A DNA stretch of 64,000 bases from an uncultured Bacteroidota bacterium. GTDB taxonomy: Bacteria > Bacteroidota > Bacteroidia > JABEUT01. Within the stretch, counting starts at the first letter, position 1. Each line of letters starts with the position of its first letter. The translations under genes were made by a program, and so were the position numbers. Below are positions 22,649 to 50,695 of the stretch, piece after piece. The notes under the pieces are model-generated. The model had not been told where the DNA came from. It made no database searches and saw only the letters and a program-made list of their open reading frames with translations. The DNA lies in the NCBI GenBank assembly GCA_903863935.1, contig CAIPDV010000008.1, forward strand, positions 1-64,000, in the 5' to 3' direction.

Positions 22649-23755
22649 TTACTGCCTCGCAACTGGAATTGTAATCTTCCTTACACGGGAATTACCTAAA
22701 TCGGCAATAAATACATTGTTGGTTTTATCAATGGCAATATCGAACGGGTACCTTACCTGTGCATGGGTTGCAAGTCCGCCATCACCATTGAATCCATCGT
22801 TGTTAGTGCCTGTTACTGGAAGAACCTTTTTCGTTCCGGCCAATACTTCACGAACTACTCCATTTCCGGCATCGGCAATAAATAAGTTACCATAACTATC
22901 AACTGCAACTCCCGCAGGATTGAACAAATGCATGGTGTCAGCATTCCCTGTAAACCCATTGAATAGGGTATCTCCTGTTCCAATAAGAGTAGAAATGATT
23001 CCGTTTTCATTTACCATTCTAACCAGGTTGTTTTTAAAATCGGCAATAAATATTTTACCGGAATTATCTACAGCTACACCGGTTGGGTTATTTAACTGAG
23101 CCAACTTTGCAGGGCCGCCATCACCAAAGCGTCCTGCCTTGTGGCTGCCTGCCACAGTGGTAATAATTCCTGAAGCAGCATCAATCTTCCGGATAACATT
23201 ATTGCTTTGATCAGCAATAAAAAGATTCCCATTTTTGTCAATGCAAATACCGACCGGATAATGGAGATACGCATTTGTCGCTTTACCGCTATCACCTCCA
23301 AAACCCTCCTGCCCGGTACCTGCAAGGGTGCTTATTTTTCCGGTGGTTGCATCTATCTTGCGTATGGCTGCATTCCCGGCATCGGAGAAATAAACATTAC
23401 GTGAACCATCTACCCGCACACAGATAGGGTAGGTGAGCTGTGCATCGGTTGCGGGTCCTCCATCGCCACGAAATCCGGCTTCCCCTGTCCCTGCTATGGT
23501 TGCAATCTTTCCGTTCTTCTTATATACTTTCCGTATGCGGTTGTTCTGTGAATCGGCTATATACACATTACCCGAATCATCCACCGCAACGCCGCTGTTC
23601 TCGTTGAGTTGGGCTGTGGTGGCTTTAATGCCATCGCCATTATACCCCGGTTTACCGCCACCTGCAACGGTGCTTATTATTCCAGTGGGATTATTTGGAG
23701 TTAAGAGCGAAGAACTAAGAGTTAAGAGTGAAATAGATAATATTTTATTTATCAT
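22649..23755 (-). CDS. Secreted NHL-repeat six-bladed propeller protein
   Basis: 368 residues with six NHL repeats, each with a GNVYIADSQNNRIRKV-type strand (also DAGNAAIRKI, DQSNNVIRKI, DFKNNLVRMV, DAGNGVVREV, DLGNSRVRKI) alternating with GDGGPAT.AQL turns. That is the number needed to close a six-bladed propeller. There is no sorting domain. The N-terminal hydrophobic segment (residues about 5-19, ILSISLLTLSSSLLT) is encoded largely by a dispersed repeat at 23698-23732 that also occurs in gene 46108. Such secreted propellers bind ligands or proteins; function unknown. Confidence 0.85.
   Translation of the reverse strand: MINKILSISLLTLSSSLLTPNNPTGIISTVAGGGKPGYNGDGIKATTAQLNENSGVAVDDSGNVYIADSQNNRIRKVYKKNGKIATIAGTGEAGFRGDGGPATDAQLTYPICVRVDGSRNVYFSDAGNAAIRKIDATTGKISTLAGTGQEGFGGDSGKATNAYLHYPVGICIDKNGNLFIADQSNNVIRKIDAASGIITTVAGSHKAGRFGDGGPAKLAQLNNPTGVAVDNSGKIFIADFKNNLVRMVNENGIISTLIGTGDTLFNGFTGNADTMHLFNPAGVAVDSYGNLFIADAGNGVVREVLAGTKKVLPVTGTNNDGFNGDGGLATHAQVRYPFDIAIDKTNNVFIADLGNSRVRKITIPVARQ
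23698..23732. repeat. 35-bp dispersed repeat within NHL signal peptide
   Basis: 32 of 35 bases match 47768-47802. On the minus strand it encodes residues 8-19 of the NHL protein signal peptide; the other copy encodes a charged loop of a T9SS sorting domain on the plus strand. Confidence 0.8.
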
Positions 23756-25068: not shown

Positions 25069-26862
25069 ATGATTAAAAAGTTTACTACCTCGCTTGCAAT
25101 TGCATGTTCTTTACTAATTTCCGGTATAAGCGGTTCTGCGCAAGGAACCTGGCAAACTCTTACCAATATTGCCCCGCATGATAATGGAGGAGTTATGTTG
25201 TTGCTTACCGATGGAACCGTAATGTGTTTAACAGAATTTGACCCTACAAATAGCGGCATTGGAAACACGTGGGATCTGTTGACCCCCGATAACCATGGGA
25301 GTTACTTAAATGGAACATGGAGCGTTCTTACACCTATGATAAGTACCCGCCTCTATATTGGTTCGCAGGTGCTGCCAAATGGCAATGTATATGCAGCGGG
25401 TGGCGAGTATGGCACAGGCGGATCATTAGGAGAAGTGTACAATACAACCACGAAAACATGGACCGCCATTACCGGGATCCCTGCTTTCTGGGATATTTAT
25501 GACGGAAATTCGGAGATACTATATAATGGAGATGTTTTGCAAGGTGTTCAAATATCACCAGACTGGTTAATCAGCGGTATGAGTATTGACAATATGCTCT
25601 ATCACCCGGGAACCAATAGTTGCGATACTGCCATGCGTTGTTTTGGAAGTCACGATGAATCATCATGGGTAAAGCTGCGAGACAGCAGCATTATCAATGT
25701 GGATATGGGGACAAAAAACTCCGAGAGATATATACCTCAAACAGGCAAGTGGGTTAAAGATGCCAACTTACCAATTGACCTGTATGACCATAAGTTATTT
25801 GAAACCGGAGCCGGATTTTTATTGCCAAATGGCAAGCTGTTCTTTTTAGGCGATTCTATCTATACTGCCATCTATACCCCTTCGGGCAATGCTAGTCCGG
25901 GTAGTTGGGTGCAGGGGCCACAGATGCCGGTTGTTAATGGCGTGCAATTGGGTTGCTCCGATGCGGCTGCAGCCATGATGCCCAATGGAAAGATCCTCTG
26001 CGATTTTTCTCCTGCAGGAACTTACAACAACCCGATTTACTTTTTTGAGTTCGATTATACTACGAACACGTTTACCCAAATAAAAGCTTTTAACGGAATT
26101 GATACCGTTAGCAACAACAGCGATTTTGTAAATATGCTGGACCTGCCTGATGGAACAGTACTTGTTTCGGAACAGGGTGACAGTGCATATTACCAATACA
26201 CTCCGTCGGGAAATCCACTTGCATCGGGTAAACCAACTATTGATGACATTACCGGAACCTGCCCCAATTATGTAGTTACCGGAAAGTTGTTCAATGGTAT
26301 TTCGGAAGGTGCAGCTTATGGCGACGACTGGCAGTGCTCCACTAACTATCCTATAGTAAGGCTTACCGATGGAACTAATGTATATTATGCTAAATCGACC
26401 AATTGGAATAGGATAGGAGCGGTGATGACCGATAGTCTACCTGATACCGCCGACTTTGTGATTCCAAATGGAATGCCTGCAGGTACTTACTCAGTGGTTG
26501 TAATAGCAAATGGAATTCAATCAAATCCAACTATGCTTACTACTAACTGTTCGCCAAATGCGGTTCAGGATATTAAAGGTGGAAATGGTAATGTGACAGT
26601 TTATCCGAATCCAGGCAATGGGCAATTTACATTGCAAATCAGGAATTACGAATTAGGAATTAGGAATGTGGAAGTATTCAATGTATTGGGTGAACAAGTG
26701 TATTCTCAATCCAATATTCAAAATCCCCGTCCGAACGGTTCAGCCGGGCGGGCAACATTCAAAATTAATCTGGGAAGCCAGCCTGCAGGGGTTTATTTCT
26801 ACAGGGTTTTGAGTGAAACTGGCGTAGTAATAGGGGATGGGAAGATTGTGATTGAGAAATAA
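25069..26862 (+). CDS. T9SS-secreted kelch propeller protein (paralogue 3)
   Basis: 597 residues with signal peptide (to SGSAQ), kelch propeller and early-set-like sandwich closely matching the protein at 11969 (shared LTDGTVM, NGNVYAAGGEYGTGG, GISEGAAYGDDW, NRIGAVMTDSL). The sorting domain begins VYPNPGNGQFTLQI and ends QPAGVYFYRVL, but two loops hold translated dispersed repeats: RNYELGIRN from an AATTACGAATTAGG-type repeat, and NPRPNGSAGRAT from a 29-bp palindromic element that also occurs, inverted, in gene 46108. A TAGTTTTG promoter box lies upstream. The role is presumably extracellular, as for the other paralogues. Confidence 0.86.
   Translation: MIKKFTTSLAIACSLLISGISGSAQGTWQTLTNIAPHDNGGVMLLLTDGTVMCLTEFDPTNSGIGNTWDLLTPDNHGSYLNGTWSVLTPMISTRLYIGSQVLPNGNVYAAGGEYGTGGSLGEVYNTTTKTWTAITGIPAFWDIYDGNSEILYNGDVLQGVQISPDWLISGMSIDNMLYHPGTNSCDTAMRCFGSHDESSWVKLRDSSIINVDMGTKNSERYIPQTGKWVKDANLPIDLYDHKLFETGAGFLLPNGKLFFLGDSIYTAIYTPSGNASPGSWVQGPQMPVVNGVQLGCSDAAAAMMPNGKILCDFSPAGTYNNPIYFFEFDYTTNTFTQIKAFNGIDTVSNNSDFVNMLDLPDGTVLVSEQGDSAYYQYTPSGNPLASGKPTIDDITGTCPNYVVTGKLFNGISEGAAYGDDWQCSTNYPIVRLTDGTNVYYAKSTNWNRIGAVMTDSLPDTADFVIPNGMPAGTYSVVVIANGIQSNPTMLTTNCSPNAVQDIKGGNGNVTVYPNPGNGQFTLQIRNYELGIRNVEVFNVLGEQVYSQSNIQNPRPNGSAGRATFKINLGSQPAGVYFYRVLSETGVVIGDGKIVIEK
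26643..26667. repeat. GAATTACGAATTAGG-type repeat read in frame
   Basis: This low-complexity word, also seen non-coding at 37819-37853, here encodes an insertion in the first loop of the T9SS sorting domain. Confidence 0.65.
26725..26753. repeat. 29-bp palindromic element in T9SS domain, copy A
   Basis: It matches the reverse complement of 47694-47722 at 28 of 29 positions. Internal arms CCCGTCCG and CGGGCGGG pair with one wobble. It is read in frame in the second loop of the sorting domain. Confidence 0.85.
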
Positions 26863-28465: not shown

Positions 28466-28864
28466 ATGCCAACAATACAGCAGTTAATTCGCACAGGCAG
28501 AACGAAGGCAAAATATAAAAGCAAGTCGGGAGCATTGGATAGGTGTCCGCAACGCAGGGGTGTTTGCATCCGTGTGTACACAACCACACCTAAAAAGCCA
28601 AACTCCGCATTGCGTAAGGTAGCCAAGGTGCGTTTGACCAACAAAGAAGAAATTATAGCTTACGTACCCGGAGAAGGTCACAACCTTCAGGAACACAGTA
28701 TCGTATTGGTACGTGGAGGCAGGGTAAAGGATCTTCCTGGTGTTCGTTACCACATTGTACGTGGCACATTGGATACCGGAGGTGTTGATAACCGCAAACA
28801 AAGCCGCAGCAAATACGGAACTAAGAGACCTAAAGCAGGTGCCGCAGCAGCAGCCAAAAAGTAA
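28466..28864 (+). CDS. rpsL: 30S ribosomal protein S12
   Basis: 132 residues, full length. Decoding-site protein with the invariant stretches [16 protein letters not shown] and [13 protein letters not shown]; lysines at the two classical streptomycin-resistance positions are of the sensitive type. First gene of the ribosomal operon, with an Ala-rich C-terminal tail. A repeat-filled 72-base gap follows before rpsG. Confidence 0.98.
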
Positions 28865-28929
28865 TTAGAAATTAATAATTAGTAATTAGAAATTAAAAAC
28901 TGATAACTGTCCACTGACCACTGATAACT
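28864..28929. repeat. Dispersed repeats between rpsL and rpsG
   Basis: AATTAGAAATTA-type words at 28864-28898 are followed at 28899-28929 by ACTGATAACTGTCCACTGACC-like words related to the 71-bp element at 43913 and 50614. Placed wholly between the two genes. Confidence 0.65.
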
Positions 28930-28936
28930 TAAAGAC

Positions 28937-29404: not shown

Positions 29405-29412
29405 TTTTAACT

Positions 29413-29441
29413 AACAACTGATAACTGACCACTGACAACTG
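29413..29441. repeat. ACTGACCACTGACAACT-type repeat before fusA
   Basis: It fills most of the 41-base gap between rpsG and fusA and is a partial copy of the right half of the 71-bp element at 43913 and 50614. Confidence 0.65.
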
Positions 29442-29445
29442 AATT

Positions 29446-37494: not shown

Positions 37495-37818
37495 ATGACA
37501 AAAATAAAGTTAAAAAAAGGTGATTTAGTTAAGGTTATAGCCGGAAACTCCCGTGGGAGAGAAGGTAAGATCCTTGATATTGATACCGACAAGTACAGAG
37601 CATTTGTAGAAGGTGTGAACATTGTTCACAAACATACCAAGCCTAATCAGAAGACCCCGAAAGGCGGAATTGTGAAGAAAGAAGCATCTGTGCATATTTC
37701 AAACCTGATGATCATTGACCCGAATGGAGGAGCTCCAACACGAGTGGGCCGTTCAGTAGATGAAAAATCAGGCAGACTGGTTAGAATTTCAAAGAAATCA
37801 GGCGAAGCCATTAAGTAA
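37495..37818 (+). CDS. rplX: 50S ribosomal protein L24
   Basis: 107 residues. Assembly initiator at the tunnel exit. KOW motif KKGDLVKVIAGNSRGREGKIL is intact. The gap after it (37819-37853) is filled with TTACGAATTA-type repeats. Confidence 0.97.
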   Translation: MTKIKLKKGDLVKVIAGNSRGREGKILDIDTDKYRAFVEGVNIVHKHTKPNQKTPKGGIVKKEASVHISNLMIIDPNGGAPTRVGRSVDEKSGRLVRISKKSGEAIK

Positions 37819-37853
37819 TTACGAATTAAAAATTACGAATTACGAATAAAAAA
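37819..37853. repeat. TTACGAATTA-type low-complexity repeat
   Basis: Three iterations between rplX and rplE. The same word family is translated in the sorting domain of gene 25069 (26643-26667). Confidence 0.6.
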
Positions 37854-37867
37854 GATAAAGAAAGAAA

Positions 37868-38753: not shown

Positions 38754-38770
38754 TACCATTCAATAAAAAA

Positions 38771-38793
38771 TTAACAATTGACAATTAACAATT
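38771..38793. repeat. AACAATTGACAATTAACAAT repeat before rpsH
   Basis: Another simple dispersed word filling the gap between rpsN and rpsH. Confidence 0.5.
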
Positions 38794-38797
38794 TAAG

Positions 38798-39196
38798 ATG
38801 ACCGACTCAATAGCAGATTATTTAACCAGACTTCGTAACGCGATTAAAGCCAAACACAGGCTGGTAGAAATTCCTTCCTCCAATTTAAAGAAGGAAATTA
38901 CCCGTATCCTCCATGAAAAAGGATATATCCTGAACTATAAAACCGAAGAAGTACCCGGCCATCAAGGCATTATTAAAATTGCATTGAAGTACAACGGTAA
39001 TACTCGTCATTCAGTAATTAAGAAACTTGACCGTGTGAGTTCACCCGGTTTGCGTCGTTATGTTGGAGCTGATAACCTGCCACGCGTTCTTAACGGACTA
39101 GGCATTGCAATCGTTTCAACCTCTAAAGGTGTTATGACAGACAAGGAAGCCCGCACCCAGGGTGTTGGCGGAGAAGTAATCTGTTACGTATACTAA
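38798..39196 (+). CDS. rpsH: 30S ribosomal protein S8
   Basis: 132 residues. Central-domain assembly protein; in E. coli also represses the spc operon. [24 protein letters not shown] start and [31 protein letters not shown] end are diagnostic. Confidence 0.98.
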
Positions 39197-43692: not shown

Positions 43693-43908
43693 ATGACCAA
43701 ACAACAATCCATACAGCAAGACGGTACCATTACCGAAGCATTGTCGAACGCAATGTTCAGGGTGGAACTCGAAAACGGCCATATGGTTACGGCTCATATT
43801 TCGGGTAAGATGCGTATGAACTACATTAAGCTTTTGCCAGGCGACAAAGTGAAACTGGAACTCTCGCCATACGATTTGAGTAAGGGAAGAATTATTATGA
43901 GATATTAA
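43693..43908 (+). CDS. infA: Translation initiation factor IF-1
   Basis: 71 residues, OB fold. [50 protein letters not shown] matches the family throughout. Its place between map and rpmJ is canonical. Confidence 0.98.
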
Positions 43909-43912
43909 AGAA

Positions 43913-43983
43913 AGTAGTCAGTGGTCAGTTGACAGTAGTCAGAAGCTACTTAACTGACCACTGATAACTGACCACTGACAACT
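43913..43983 (+). repeat. 71-bp palindromic repeat, copy 1 (infA-rpmJ gap)
   Basis: Arms AGTGGTCAGTT (43920-43930) and AACTGACCACT (43952-43962) enclose a 21-base loop; a further ACTGACCACTGACAACT iteration follows at 43991-44006. About 90 percent identical to 50614-50684 in the same orientation. Confidence 0.85.
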
Positions 43984-44017
43984 AAGAAAAACTGACCACT
44001 GACAACTAAAAGAAACC

Positions 44018-44140: not shown

Positions 44141-44147
44141 GTCGCAT

Positions 44148-44221
44148 AACTATGAACGATGAAGTATGAACTATGTGCAAATTGCTCTCCGTTCATAATT
44201 CATAGTTTATAGTTCATAGTT
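44148..44221. repeat. AACTATGAAC-type imperfect inverted repeat
   Basis: AACTATGAACGATGAAGTAT (44148-44167, continuing to 44171) is approximately complementary to 44191-44221 (GTTCATAATTCATAG, then TTTATAGTTCATAGTT). It lies between the rpmJ stop and its terminator. Confidence 0.6.
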
Positions 44222-44227
44222 CTAATA

Positions 44228-44462: not shown

Positions 44463-44693
44463 AAAAACATGGGTTGTTTATAGCAAATATGAATATTTAA
44501 AATTGGCTGCATTGTAAGTTTTATTTGCATCATTTTTATTCTGTTTTGTTCAAACTTTCTACTTTGTATTTTCTACTTTCTACTTTCCACTCTTTCCTGC
44601 AAAGATACTGCCCGAAATGCGGTTTTAGTAAAAGTCAATGACCTGCCGATTAGCCCAAAAATTTCCTTATCTTTACTTTCTGAAAATCAGTTC

Positions 44694-45992
44694 ATGAAAG
44701 GGAAAATTATTTTACTTGTTTCTGTTTTGTCGTTTGCTGTTAATCTTTATTCACAAACTTGGAAAAGAATAAACTCTCCAACAAGTACGGCTCTTGGTTC
44801 ATGCTCATTTGTAAATAAAGATACCGGTTGGGTTACTTCAAATGACTCTGTATTCAAAACTATGGATGGAGGAATTACCTGGATAAATCAAGCTACTCCG
44901 TCTGTTCCATCTTATGTTACTTTTAGTTTTTATAACGTGTATTTCATCAATTACAAGGTTGGAATTATTGACTGTTTATTTACTTTAGACTCTGCTACCA
45001 GTAAGCTTGTTGGAACAATATTATGGACAAATGACGCTGGTAATCATTGGGAATTTAAAGACATAGGAAACCCTTGTTGTAATATGAATGCAACTTTAGT
45101 TGATCCATATGTGGCTTTTGGAATTGGGCAATATGGAGTCGGTAAGAAAACTACTGATTCTGGTGCAACTTGGTCTAGTTTTAATTATTATCCACTTTAC
45201 AGTGGAGAAAAACTATTTGCTTTTAATCCTGATACAGTTTATTTTGCAGGCCTAGATAACTTCCACTTACTTGGTGCATTTGGAAAAACGCTGGATGGAG
45301 GTTCCAATTGGAATATTAATACAATTTCCACTAACAAAGGATTTACTGCCATTTATTTTTGTAATTATAATAAAGGCTGGGTTGGAGGCGATATGGGCGT
45401 AATAAAATACACAGTAAACGGAGGTAATTCGTGGATCGGAACCGGTTCGCAACTTGTTACCTTAAGTAATATTCAGGATATTGCATTTACCGATACTCTC
45501 AATGGATGGGCGATAACCTCAGATGGAAAAATTATTCATTCTACTGATGGTGGTATTGCCTGGTCAATTAATTACAAAGGAACCGATGCACTGTTTGCCA
45601 TGTGTTTTACCAAGCCAGATGGGATTGGTTATGCTGTTGGAGACAGTGGCAGAGTATTGAAATATGAGCAATTAAGTGCTACCCAAAAAATCAACTATGA
45701 GATTGTTTATTCGTTGTACCCCAACCCCAACAATGGCAAATTTACTTTGGAAGTGAATACCGATAGCTATCGGGATGATAATGTAAAAGTGAAAAATATA
45801 GAGGTGTTTAATGTGCTTGGGGAATCGGTGCTAAAACAGACCCTTCGCTCCGCTCAGCCTGCCCGAACTGGTACAGGCGGGGGTGACAATCTCATTGACC
45901 TTACAAATCAACCCAACGGGGTTTATTTCTACCGGGTTCTTTCTGAGATTGGGTCTTTAATAGGTGAGGGGAAGGTGGTTGTTCAGAGATAG
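44694..45992 (+). CDS. T9SS-secreted Ycf48/BNR-like propeller protein
   Basis: 432 residues. Signal peptide (MKGKIILLVSVLSFAVNLYS) followed by Ycf48-like or sialidase-type blades: KDTGWVTSNDSVFKTMDGGITW, GTILWTNDAGNHWEF, KKTTDSGATWSSF, FGKTLDGGSNWNI, VIKYTVNGGNSW and IIHSTDGGIAWSI. The sorting domain (LYPNPNNGKFTLEV ... QPNGVYFYRVL) carries two insertions: TDSYRDDN from the palindrome CCGATAGCTATCGG (45760-45773), and RSAQPARTGTGGGD from adjacent repeats including a hairpin at 45858-45881. A TATCTTTA box lies at 44668-44675. This gene lies in the gap that splits the spc and alpha blocks. Confidence 0.86.
   Translation: MKGKIILLVSVLSFAVNLYSQTWKRINSPTSTALGSCSFVNKDTGWVTSNDSVFKTMDGGITWINQATPSVPSYVTFSFYNVYFINYKVGIIDCLFTLDSATSKLVGTILWTNDAGNHWEFKDIGNPCCNMNATLVDPYVAFGIGQYGVGKKTTDSGATWSSFNYYPLYSGEKLFAFNPDTVYFAGLDNFHLLGAFGKTLDGGSNWNINTISTNKGFTAIYFCNYNKGWVGGDMGVIKYTVNGGNSWIGTGSQLVTLSNIQDIAFTDTLNGWAITSDGKIIHSTDGGIAWSINYKGTDALFAMCFTKPDGIGYAVGDSGRVLKYEQLSATQKINYEIVYSLYPNPNNGKFTLEVNTDSYRDDNVKVKNIEVFNVLGESVLKQTLRSAQPARTGTGGGDNLIDLTNQPNGVYFYRVLSEIGSLIGEGKVVVQR
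45760..45773. repeat. Palindrome in first loop of T9SS domain
   Basis: CCGATAGCTATCGG is a perfect 14-bp palindrome, in frame, between the KFTLEV strand and the IEVFNVLGE strand. Confidence 0.75.
45858..45881. repeat. Hairpin element in second loop of T9SS domain
   Basis: CCTGCC and GGCGGG arms (one wobble) enclose CGAACTGGTACA. The shape and the CCGAACNGGT core resemble the 29-bp element at 26725 and 47694. The preceding CTTCGCTCCGCTCAG is a second repeat-like word. Confidence 0.65.
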
Positions 45993-46004
45993 GAAAAAGA
46001 CGCG

Positions 46005-46024
46005 CTCTCCCTTAAAGGGGAGAG
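46005..46024 (+). repeat. CTCTCCC/GGGAGAG hairpin after Ycf48-like gene
   Basis: CTCTCCC (46005-46011) pairs with GGGAGAG (46018-46024) across TTAAAG, 13 bases after the stop codon. There is no T-run, so a dispersed repeat is more likely than a terminator. Confidence 0.5.
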
Positions 46025-46095
46025 TAAGGAGTGGGGCAGGTGAGGGGAAGGTAATAATTTAGAAATTGCATTTTTTTTTGCTATTATTTTTCTTT

Positions 46096-46103
46096 TATCT
46101 TTG
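46096..46103 (+). promoter_or_regulatory. TAnnTTTG box four bases before start codon
   Basis: TATCTTTG ends four bases before the ATG at 46108, so the transcript would be leaderless or nearly so. Confidence 0.55.
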
Positions 46104-46107
46104 ATGG

Positions 46108-47904
46108 ATGAAAAAAACACTACTCCATGTTAAATCCTTTTCCGGCTTCTTTAAAATAGGAATGCTGTGTATTTCCTTATTTATATTCAGGCAAAGCCCT
46201 GCCCAAGGCACATGGACTGCCATTAACAATTTAGCTCCTGCACCCGAAGGCGGTGGCATGGTTTTGCTGACGGATGGAACTGTAATGTGCAAAACGTATT
46301 CGCCGGGAGGATGGCCAACCCCTGATAGTGGCTGGGTTCTGCTTACTCCCGATAGTCATGGTAGTTATGTGAATGGCACCTGGAGCACATTGCCCAATAT
46401 GCACTATGGCCGCTTTGCGTTTTCTTCTCAGGTTATGCCCGATGGCAACGTATACATTGCCGGAGGCGAGCATGGCAACGGAACCAACACTGCAGAGTTA
46501 TATAATACGGTCACTAAAAAATGGAAGGATATTCCCAATTCCCCGGGTTTTGATATTGAAGATGCTAATTCGGAATTACTATACGATGGCACAGTGCTCG
46601 AAGGTTGTGGGAATCCCTATAATCCGCCGATAGATACAATAAATCTTATGTACATGCCAGGCACCGGTTCGTTTATTGCCGGACCATCCAGTTTTGGAAC
46701 CCATGAGGAAAGCTCCTGGTTAAAACTGCCTGACAGCAGCGTATTATCGGTAGATGCTATTACAAGAAATTCGGAACGGTACATTCCGCAGCAACATAAA
46801 TGGGTGCACGATGGCACTCTTCCGGTTGACCTGTTTGACCCGGGATCGTATGAAACGGGTGCCTGTGTACTACTGCCTAATGGCAAAGGTTTTTTTATTG
46901 GCGATATACAATACACCGCAATATATACTCCGAGCGGCAATGCTAGTCCCGGAACCTGGTCTACAGGGTCTGCCATGCCAACACGGGCAGGTATTGGTCA
47001 GTTAGCTTCGTGGGACGGCCCGGCTGCTATGATGGTGAACGGGAATGTACTATGTACTTTTAGTGCTCCGGCGAGTGAAAGCGAACCAACCTTTTTCTAT
47101 GAATATAATTACCTCACCAATGCATTTACAGCAGTGTCAGCCCCCGGCAATGTTGATTCGGCACTTACCTGGTCTAATTTCATGACCCTGCTCCAATTGC
47201 CCGATGGAAGCGTAATGTTGGGATATACCGATTCTACCCGGTTCTATATTTATAAACCAAGCGGTTCCGCTATTCCTCAGGGTATACCAACCATCAACGA
47301 AGTGGCTTCCAATAACTGTGATACATTTAGAATTACCGGCAAATTATTCAACGGAATATCTGAAGGGGCGGGCTTTGGCGATGATTGGCAGATGTCTACC
47401 AATTATCCGATTGTAAGGGTTACCGATGGTACCAATGTTTATTATGCTAAAACATTTAACTGGAACCGGCTTGGTGCACTAAGGACAGATAGTTTGGAAG
47501 ATACAGCCTATTTTACTTTCCCGAATGCAATACCCGCAGGTACCTATTCACTGGTGGTAGTTGCAAATGGTTTCCCGTCCAAGCCTGTTCTATTTGGTCC
47601 TTGCATTACTGCTATTGCAGATATAAAAGACCAAAAGAATATCAGCATTTTTCCTAACCCTTCAAAAGGCAAATTCACAATACAGTCATCAGTGCCCGCC
47701 CGGATGAACCGTTCGGACGGGGTCAGTGCTCTGTGGTCAGTGGATGTTTATAATTTAATGGGGCAGCGAGTTAAGAGTGAAGAACTAAGAGCGAAGAGTG
47801 AAGAAATTGACCTTACAGGTCAACCTAATGGGGTATATTTCTATCGGGTTCTTTCGGAGAATGGCGGTTTAATAGGCGAGGGGAAGGTGGTGATTCAGAA
47901 ATAG
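46108..47904 (+). CDS. T9SS-secreted kelch propeller protein (paralogue 4)
   Basis: 598 residues. N-terminal signal (hydrophobic GMLCISLFIFRQSPAQ), kelch propeller and the shared KLFNGISEGAGFGDDW / NYPIVRVTDGTNVYYAKT sandwich as in the genes at 11969, 18862 and 25069. The sorting domain (IFPNPSKGKFTIQ ... QPNGVYFYRVL) is the most invaded in the window: VPARMNRSDG from the 29-bp palindromic element, SALWSV from GTCAGTG-type repeat sequence, and KSEELRAKSEE from the 35-bp repeat. It lies within the interruption between rpmJ and rpsM. The leaderless-type promoter supports this ATG. Confidence 0.86.
   Translation: MKKTLLHVKSFSGFFKIGMLCISLFIFRQSPAQGTWTAINNLAPAPEGGGMVLLTDGTVMCKTYSPGGWPTPDSGWVLLTPDSHGSYVNGTWSTLPNMHYGRFAFSSQVMPDGNVYIAGGEHGNGTNTAELYNTVTKKWKDIPNSPGFDIEDANSELLYDGTVLEGCGNPYNPPIDTINLMYMPGTGSFIAGPSSFGTHEESSWLKLPDSSVLSVDAITRNSERYIPQQHKWVHDGTLPVDLFDPGSYETGACVLLPNGKGFFIGDIQYTAIYTPSGNASPGTWSTGSAMPTRAGIGQLASWDGPAAMMVNGNVLCTFSAPASESEPTFFYEYNYLTNAFTAVSAPGNVDSALTWSNFMTLLQLPDGSVMLGYTDSTRFYIYKPSGSAIPQGIPTINEVASNNCDTFRITGKLFNGISEGAGFGDDWQMSTNYPIVRVTDGTNVYYAKTFNWNRLGALRTDSLEDTAYFTFPNAIPAGTYSLVVVANGFPSKPVLFGPCITAIADIKDQKNISIFPNPSKGKFTIQSSVPARMNRSDGVSALWSVDVYNLMGQRVKSEELRAKSEEIDLTGQPNGVYFYRVLSENGGLIGEGKVVIQK
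47694..47722. repeat. 29-bp palindromic element in T9SS domain, copy B
   Basis: Reverse complement of 26725-26753 with one difference in 29. Read in frame in the opposite orientation to copy A, in the first loop of the sorting domain. Confidence 0.85.
47768..47802. repeat. 35-bp dispersed repeat in T9SS domain
   Basis: 32 of 35 bases match 23698-23732. Here it encodes the charged second-loop insertion of the sorting domain. Confidence 0.82.
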
Positions 47905-47905
47905 G

Positions 47906-48071
47906 GTTCATTCATTAGCCCCATCCTTTAGGTCAGGGTATAAAATGCGCTAATTATTAATTCAGAGGGCTTTAGCCCTTACATGTTAAAATTTGTAAGG
48001 GCTAAAGCCCTAAAATAATGGTCTTGTATTTCCCCTAACCCCAACCTAAAGGATGGGGCTAATGAATGAAC
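47906..48071. repeat. 166-bp nested palindromic (MITE-like) element
   Basis: Outer arms 47906-47933 and 48044-48071 are perfect 28-bp inverted repeats, starting GTTCATTCATTAGCCCCATC. An inner pair, AGGGCTTTAGCCCTTACA (47966-47983) and its complement (47994-48011), is a perfect 18-bp stem with a 10-base loop. It starts two bases after the stop of gene 46108 and ends 47 bases before the rpsM promoter box. No target-site duplication was seen. Confidence 0.88.
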
Positions 48072-50608: not shown

Positions 50609-50613
50609 ATAAA

Positions 50614-50684
50614 AGTAGTCAGTGGTCAGTTATCAGTAGTCAGGGACTACTCAACTGACCACTGATAACTGACTACTGACAACT
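50614..50684 (+). repeat. 71-bp palindromic repeat, copy 2 (rpoA-rplQ gap)
   Basis: Arms AGTGGTCAGTT (50621-50631) and AACTGACCACT (50653-50663). Differs from 43913-43983 at about seven positions and is exactly the same length. It occupies almost the whole rpoA-rplQ gap. Confidence 0.85.
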
Positions 50685-50695
50685 ATTAAAAAGAA

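Follow-up and report, generated by a model that had tools for sequence, protein, structure and literature searches.

The two matching 35-base sequences in the 64,000-nucleotide stretch of DNA analysed here (the window) are likely to be domesticated solo copies of a terminal repeat found at the ends of a small selfish element with a gene for a 23S-rRNA intervening-sequence protein (IVP), reused as the core of a leader peptide in one gene and as a sorting-domain loop in another. The original prediction had claimed a 35-base match between GAGTTAAGAGCGAAGAACTAAGAGTTAAGAGTGAA (23698-23732) and GAGTTAAGAGTGAAGAACTAAGAGCGAAGAGTGAA (47768-47802), and this match was confirmed, with 32/35 bases identical and 3 mismatches. 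A BLAST search of the own genome with the 35-mer gave 91% identity over 35 bases (E 1.3e-7) and 13 matches in total, and the 20-mer core with ≤3 mismatches occurred twice in the 64-kb window against 0.01 occurrences expected from dinucleotide shuffles. The two translations were likewise as predicted: the minus-strand reading of 23698-23732 is MINKILSISLLTLSSSLLTPNNPTG..., with the array spanning about residues 8-19 of the leader of an NHL protein, and the plus-strand reading of 47768-47802 is GQRVKSEELRAKSEEIDLTGQPNG, a charged KSEELRAKSEE loop within a T9SS sorting domain. At both sites the 35-bp repeat is a degenerate period-7 array (23698-23729 and 47768-47804 by Tandem Repeats Finder). This period had been overlooked earlier, and at a loose threshold the window holds 16 such arrays.

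Period-7 arrays recur throughout the genome (G000). In 404 kb, made up of the window and 340 kb of further stretches, 19 strict lag-7 arrays were counted and none in the shuffled control, with 0-3 arrays at each of the other lags from 2 to 24 except lag 14, the doubled period, which gave 13; over 804 kb, 39 lag-7 arrays stood against 0-7 at lags 5, 6, 8-11 and 13. The unit families are AATTAGG/AATTACG, AACTGAC, GTTATGA, ACTATGA, ACTTTCT, TTTTCAT and TTMRYTC, and the pattern for the family of the 35-mers themselves had 77 overlapping matches in the genome versus 18 for the reversed pattern. The density of strict arrays per 100 kb was 4.85 in G000 and 6.92 in G005 versus 0.59 in G006, a 99% complete congener that has no IVP and about a tenth of the arrays. 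The highest density, taken from an 80-kb sample only, was that of G009, whose assembly is 57% complete and has two IVP matches. In relatives from other families IVP genes were present, yet only one lag-7 array was found in 333 kb. An IVP by itself is therefore not enough for solo arrays to abound, and it is in this lineage that solo ends have proliferated.

The link between arrays and IVP genes was seen at the IVP loci themselves. The family PF05635 (IVP or S23p, a four-helix bundle) had nine matches in G000, with seven uninterrupted genes and one broken in two; the copy on contig C121 matched TIGR02436 (E 8e-32), and that on C14 matched PDB 2gsc and 2rld. Each of the seven uninterrupted genes has a 7-base array on either side, the two being inverted relative to each other. 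These arrays belong to six unit families, one of them shared by the copies on C54 and C113, and all seven genes adjoin protein genes rather than lying inside 23S rRNA. These elements work like a relative of the intervening sequence (IVS) and are not rRNA IVS proper. PF05635 was present in 48 of 60 relatives, and 49 distinct IVP genes from the genus and its class were assembled from 56 loci with flanks anchored on the gene, after short, interrupted or duplicate proteins and short flanks had been dropped. At least one array was found at 39 of the 49, arrays on both sides at 27, and an inverted arrangement at 25 of these 27; L242 and L245 carry same-orientation arrays on both sides, against the inverted rule. 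The remaining 10 of the 49 had no period-7 array at the threshold, some of them having period 8 or another: L264, L266, L222 and L240 are bracketed by period-8 arrays, and at L243 and L244 the periods are 8 and 6, which means that the IVPs do not all share one period. Among similar-sized genes of G000 and G005, arrays on both sides were found at 6 of 199, three of which are two IVPs and an IVP neighbour, and in other families, for which slightly different windows were used, at 0 of 64. Furthermore, IVP protein identity tracks array similarity (Mantel r 0.481, 0/2000 permutations), with arrays matching at ≥18/21 in 5/5 protein pairs of >80% identity versus 0/392 pairs of <30% identity. By this measure, the array sequence co-diverges with the IVP protein.

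The order of the units places the two 35-mers among the ends of such elements. The ends of the C121 element read GCTAAGA GCTAAGA ACTAAGA GCTAAGA G and GCTAAGA GGTAAGA ATTAAGA GCTAAGA G, the NHL array reads GTTAAGA GCGAAGA ACTAAGA GTTAAGA G, and the kelch array at 47768-47802 reads GTTAAGA GTGAAGA ACTAAGA GCGAAGA G. Of 11 non-IVP arrays of the family (leaders, sorting-domain loops and spacers, aligned manually), 10 have an A-initial variant unit in third place, like ACTAAGA or ATTAAGA in the C121 ends, the leader on C81 being the one without it, and four-unit runs of the AATTANR type keep the order g-A-g-g in 4 of 5 cases. Copies would share their unit order in this way, whereas independent slippage would not be expected to produce it. 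The array at 23698-23732 (minus strand), of the TTMRYTC unit family and the C121-element type, matches the C121 IVP end (L215) at 19/20 and codes for the h-region of the NHL leader; that at 47768-47802 (plus strand) belongs to the same family of IVP ends in the opposite coding orientation. The 64-kb window, on contig C8, has no IVP match, and both 35-mers, standing without an IVP gene, are solo ends and not complete elements. Arrays matched the IVP ends better than the reversed ends in 11/11 leaders, in 42 versus 6 intergenic cases (8 ties, n=56) and in 10 versus 2 other coding cases. The units that would otherwise carry an in-frame TAG or TAA are altered in both instances in the NHL array (2/2) and in both in the kelch sorting domain (2/2), as would be expected under selection to stay open, openness being also a precondition for calling a gene. 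The original prediction had suggested that a repeat, mobile or expanding, was recruited as a signal for secretion. The genome-wide dispersal, the match to IVP ends including unit order, and the recurrence of array-coded leaders point in that direction, and the expanding part has to be given up: the arrays are imperfect copies of element ends, not an expanding microsatellite, and the NHL array has no identical adjacent units.

The gene with the array-coded leader MINKILSISLLTLSSSLLTP is an open reading frame for an NHL beta-propeller protein of 368 aa (22649-23755, minus strand; PF01436 NHL and PF25021). Under a home-made signal-peptide rule its leader MINKILSISLLTLSSSLLT has a basic n-region and a hydrophobic core; in the region LLTPNNPTG of this strain no clear cleavage site of the small-x-small or A-x-A/AQ kind was seen by eye, and the orthologue has LFAQ. 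The array forms the hydrophobic core of a putative export signal, and the protein is predicted to be exported. Immediately after the NHL start there is no further Met in frame, and in G005 the orthologue (66% protein identity) likewise begins with a leader that carries a period-7 array at the DNA level; neither of the two refuting observations named in the original prediction was made. An alpha/beta hydrolase orthologue in G005 (84% identity) has a period-7 leader there too. The arrays of both G005 leaders are of a TTTTCA-like type, resembling the ends of one G005 IVP element whose protein is 72% identical to the C121 IVP. Between G000 and G005, the leader DNA has diverged about as far as the DNA of the mature part (identity 43/59 versus 79%, and 37/60 versus 67%). 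The acquisition is accordingly placed before the two species separated, the event itself not having been witnessed, and there is no sign of recent replacement. The leader arrays were probably already present in the common ancestor of G000 and G005 and then drifted, and the domestication of array-coded leaders is old on this comparison, congener orthologues having kept them. A swap of leaders between the G000 and G005 orthologues, considered for the TTMRYTC and TTTTCAT types, was rejected, the divergence of the leaders being close to that of the mature part. A contig search with the NHL protein gave eight distant relatives, and G000 has about 60 NHL matches, the family being multi-copy.

Leaders of this kind are not confined to the NHL gene. 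In G000, 11 of 26 in-gene lag-7 arrays lay in the first 30 codons of genes with signal-peptide-like starts, zones that make up 3.6% of the coding DNA (binomial p 6e-10), and in G005 10 of 24 did so (p 7e-9); genes were taken from a home-made gene finder, and signal peptides were called by a crude home-made rule, not by SignalP. Array-coded cores account for 11 of 254 signal-peptide-like genes in 804 kb of G000 and 10 of 145 in 419 kb of G005, examples being MKKLLVAFSLFTLSSSLLAQ (the alpha/beta hydrolase), MKKPLLYFSFFIFHFSFAQ and MKKLRVFILFTLSSSLFTLCSAQ. All 11 leader arrays of G000 are pyrimidine-rich on the coding strand; 3 of the 10 in G005 are not T-rich. Arrays at the pooled control lags 5, 8, 10, 11 and 13 fell in the same zones in 2 of 34 cases in G000 and 3 of 16 in G005, and the excess of lag 7 over these lags was significant in G000 (Fisher p 0.0009) and not in G005 (p 0.12). 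At 19204-19300 of L060, one arm of a gene-less hairpin codes for the leader MSKKNLTSVYLISYISYLLSFTFAG; here an element may have been inserted at a gene start more recently.

The second 35-mer lies in a gene for a kelch protein of 598 aa (46108-47904, plus strand), whose T9SS type A sorting domain at residues 514-596 scores above the cut-offs of TIGR04183 and PF18962 (35.3 versus 23 bits and 43.9 versus 27 bits). Another variable loop of the same domain holds a second, shorter heptamer remnant of the AACTGAC type in direct reading, GGTCAGT GCTCTGT GGTCAGT (47721-47743, plus strand), and longer AACTGAC-type arrays occur at this loop in other genes. An AATTAGG-type array at 26634-26677 (plus strand) codes for FTLQIRNYELGIRNVEVFNVLGEQ in a further T9SS sorting-domain loop. 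Sorting-domain arrays occupy two variable loops of the domain, at which several unit families were found, and LRAKSEE-type loops are common to several sorting domains. Lag 7 reached ≥14/21 in 4 of 24 sorting domains in a G000 sample, in 6 of 24 in a G005 sample and in 6 of 28 among the top-scoring loci (both strands read, 28 of 30 loci parsed), with 0-1 each at the control lags 5, 8, 10, 11 and 13. Collectively, coding arrays concentrate in signal-peptide cores and sorting-domain loops. The T9SS sorting domains of G000 number at least 150 (out of 360 candidates, 150 were scored), and by the counts of sorting domains and NHL matches its secretome is very large.

Outside coding sequence, arrays and hairpins of the window lie largely in the spacers of genes that we take, from their recognised N-termini, to be rpsL, rpsG, fusA, rplX, rplE, rpsN, rpsH, infA, rpmJ, rpoA and rplQ. 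Gene-less inverted pairs were found in the infA-rpmJ spacer (43908-43989, AACTGAC type; fold -39.5 kcal/mol, z -8.4), downstream of rpmJ (44146-44227, ACTATGA type; z -5.9) and in the rpoA-rplQ spacer (50613-50689, AACTGAC type; z -9.1). Arrays of the TTACTAA and AACTGAC types occupy the rpsL-rpsG spacer (28856-28934), and solo arrays lie between rpsG and fusA (29407-29445, AACTGAC type), between rplX and rplE (37814-37860, AATTACG type, with a 20/20 match to the congener IVP end L270), between rpsN and rpsH (38758-38801, CAATTAA type) and at 44552-44599 (ACTTTCT type, matching the G005 IVP end L254). Altogether 14 of the 16 window arrays match an IVP end of the genus at ≥18/20; the remaining two (38464 and 49581) reach 14-15 matches only and may be chance. 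Within these ribosomal-protein operon spacers (28856-50689), array ends and hairpins often stand within a few bases of start codons. The 804 kb contain 15 gene-less inverted pairs, plus one pair that encloses the C121 IVP, and in a few of the 15 one arm overlaps a gene start, as in the L060 leader. Occupied and empty sites were compared at loci that we presumed from recognised sequences to be accB-accC and nuoE-nuoF. An IVP lies between accB and accC in G000 and G005 and is absent there in G008, G003, G001, G006 and G004 (L285 being left out at accC); between nuoE and nuoF, compared at plus-strand loci only (G000, G005 and G004), an IVP is present in G000 and absent in G005, whose NuoF is 95% identical. 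No insertion in progress was seen, and no target-site duplication was definable at the compared sites. Where G000 has the IVP, the nuoE-nuoF spacer of G005 (L272) has an imperfect repeat, AACTTTATGAACTTTAAAA, with a period of about 18 bases.

These observations can be brought together in the following route. The intact element, of ~450 bp, carries four to five 7-base units as an array at one end, followed by a gene for an IVP of ~120 aa and by the array again in inverted form, with one heptamer per IVP lineage, and it may be moved by the IVP itself or by a Y1 transposase. Reverse transcriptase (PF00078) had no match in G000 and one in each of 2 of the 11 genus genomes, and its absence from G000 counts against a retroelement of its own. 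Hairpins that had lost the gene, and single ends, would have spread through spacers, including those of the ribosomal operons. Since 7 is not a multiple of 3, one set of seven residues, rotated, is read in all three frames of an array, and the peptide is therefore determined mainly by orientation. In the family of the 35-mers, the pyrimidine-rich strand encodes an L/F/S-rich hydrophobic peptide and the purine-rich strand a charged K/E/R peptide; stops apart, an end with the hydrophobic strand could serve as a leader core in any frame. With the peptide set by orientation in this way, a single end that came to lie close to a gene start or within a tolerant loop could be retained as a Sec core or as a hypervariable T9SS loop, and retention, once the units with in-frame stops had changed, would have made the one copy the Sec leader core of the NHL gene and the other a loop of the C-terminal T9SS sorting domain of the kelch gene. 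The array structure, the bracketing of IVP genes, the homology in unit order, the co-divergence, the empty sites, the enrichment in leaders and loops and the array-coded leaders of orthologues were all observed; that the elements transpose, that the IVP recognises the arrays, that the proteins are exported and in which order the steps occurred we infer.

Four other explanations were weighed. Arrays could arise locally and independently by heptanucleotide slippage and survive where proteins tolerate them, and among repeats of 5-11 nt, period 7 has been reported as the most frequent in many genomes, with slippage proposed as the cause (Mrazek 2007, as described in PMC4679880); the arrays do lie at tolerant places. 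Slippage does not predict the inverted pairing at IVP genes and hairpins, however, and we hold it to be very unlikely, given also imperfect arrays that share their unit order with IVP ends and with one another (the g-A-g-g order of 4/5 AATTANR runs included) and an array density that drops where the IVP is absent. A REP-like spread by Y1 (HUH) transposases, in which hairpins and solo arrays would be palindromic REP-type elements and IVP genes passengers, is decidedly unlikely in our judgement: Y1_Tnp is present in 10 of the 11 genus genomes, with seven matches each in G000 and G005 and two damaged or partial ones in the array-poor G006, and gene-less hairpins are common, but the one Y1 gene examined (at L205) is not bracketed by arrays, and IVP protein and array co-diverge.

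The remaining two concern the coding copies. Leader and sorting-domain cassettes may have been duplicated by ordinary recombination among genes for secreted proteins, the arrays being old parts of these cassettes. NHL proteins and sorting domains are multi-copy, the LRAKSEE-type loops are shared among sorting domains and orthologues keep the leader array; against this, the 35-mer family also occurs in spacers and at IVP ends, leaders and loops use opposite coding orientations, and different unit families sit in the same two loops. Cassette duplication is unlikely though credible, and some of the spread among genes of the secretome could well be due to it. That the gain or loss of one unit in the leader array switches NHL export, in the manner of the Neisseria opa pentamers, is extremely unlikely. 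A seven-base change would indeed shift the frame, the unit number of the Coxiella IVS varies (as described in PMC4990558) and the opa repeats are located in the leader (as described in PMC3960869), but adjacent units of the NHL array are never identical, so that slippage should be rare, and the stop-avoiding changes are tuned to a single frame. The perfect tandem units that mark a phase-variable locus were not found in the NHL array.

The proposed IVP elements resemble several known systems in part. REP/RAYT systems and MITEs are short dispersed inverted-repeat elements without genes that derive from a coding parent, much like the arrays, but the latter go with a four-helix-bundle protein and not with a transposase of the Y1 or DDE kind. 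To Avd of diversity-generating retroelements the IVP has a weak likeness only (DivGenRetAVD, E 2e-4, below the cut-off), and G000 lacks a reverse transcriptase. The IVS of 23S rRNA in Coxiella and Leptospira (PF05635, TIGR02436) share the protein family and have the gene between complementary inverted ends. As described in PMC4990558, the Coxiella IVS comprises an S23p open reading frame and a 28-bp terminal stem and is excised by RNase III; tandem heptamers, two or three depending on the strain, adjoin the reading frame just upstream, a case of heptamers at such a gene that was reported independently, and the IVS is there termed selfish and its mobility hypothesised. Unlike the 23S IVS, the elements described here lie between protein genes, their heptamers differ by IVP lineage, and their hairpins and solo ends are found genome-wide and reach coding sequence. 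TAACTGA heptamers have been reported from Beggiatoaceae, cyanobacteria and five Bacteroidetes (MacGregor 2015, PMC4679880); as set out there, the same heptamer (TAACTGA, the AACTGAC type here) occurs just upstream of start codons and in ribosomal operons, and reverse arrays occur at protein ends. A single heptamer is considered in that paper, as a site at which translation might be controlled and with no carrier, and its main text does not contain the terms '23S', 'intervening' or 'S23', whereas several heptamers were found here, each of an IVP lineage. The CTCTT repeat of Neisseria opa is likewise a short leader-coding repeat with a length not divisible by three; in opa the number of repeats changes and thereby switches expression (as described in PMC3960869), whereas the arrays here are imperfect copies of element ends in many unrelated genes. 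Searches of the open-licence PMC literature brought up no paper that connects IVP genes with dispersed heptamer arrays or with signal peptides.

It is an evenly balanced question whether IVPs (S23p) generally are dedicated factors of widespread tiny transposable elements, with heptamer-array ends recognised by the cognate IVP, such that the reported heptamers (TAACTGA, those of the Coxiella IVS and those of Bacteroidota) would be their ends, hairpins or relics, and such that these ends repeatedly became signal-peptide cores and secretion-tag loops in the present lineage. On this reading, bacterial heptamer repeats that were previously reported without a carrier would have both a carrier and an origin, and the S23p/IVP family, a family of unknown function, would have a testable role in recognising its own terminal array. 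It would also provide a concrete route by which selfish DNA supplies export signals and sorting-tag loops, since an end on the suitable strand would yield a hydrophobic core at any landing site close to a start codon, the heptapeptide being the same, in rotation, in any frame.

Two further features of the neighbourhood of the kelch gene were noted. Together with one other gene, it splits the usual order of the ribosomal operon between rpmJ and rpsM (44694-47904 of the window). At 47921-48062, on its 3' side, lie the nested inverted repeats ggctttagccctta / taagggctaaagccc and gccccatcctttagg / cctaaaggatggggc, which are not of period 7 and apparently represent another dispersed palindrome.
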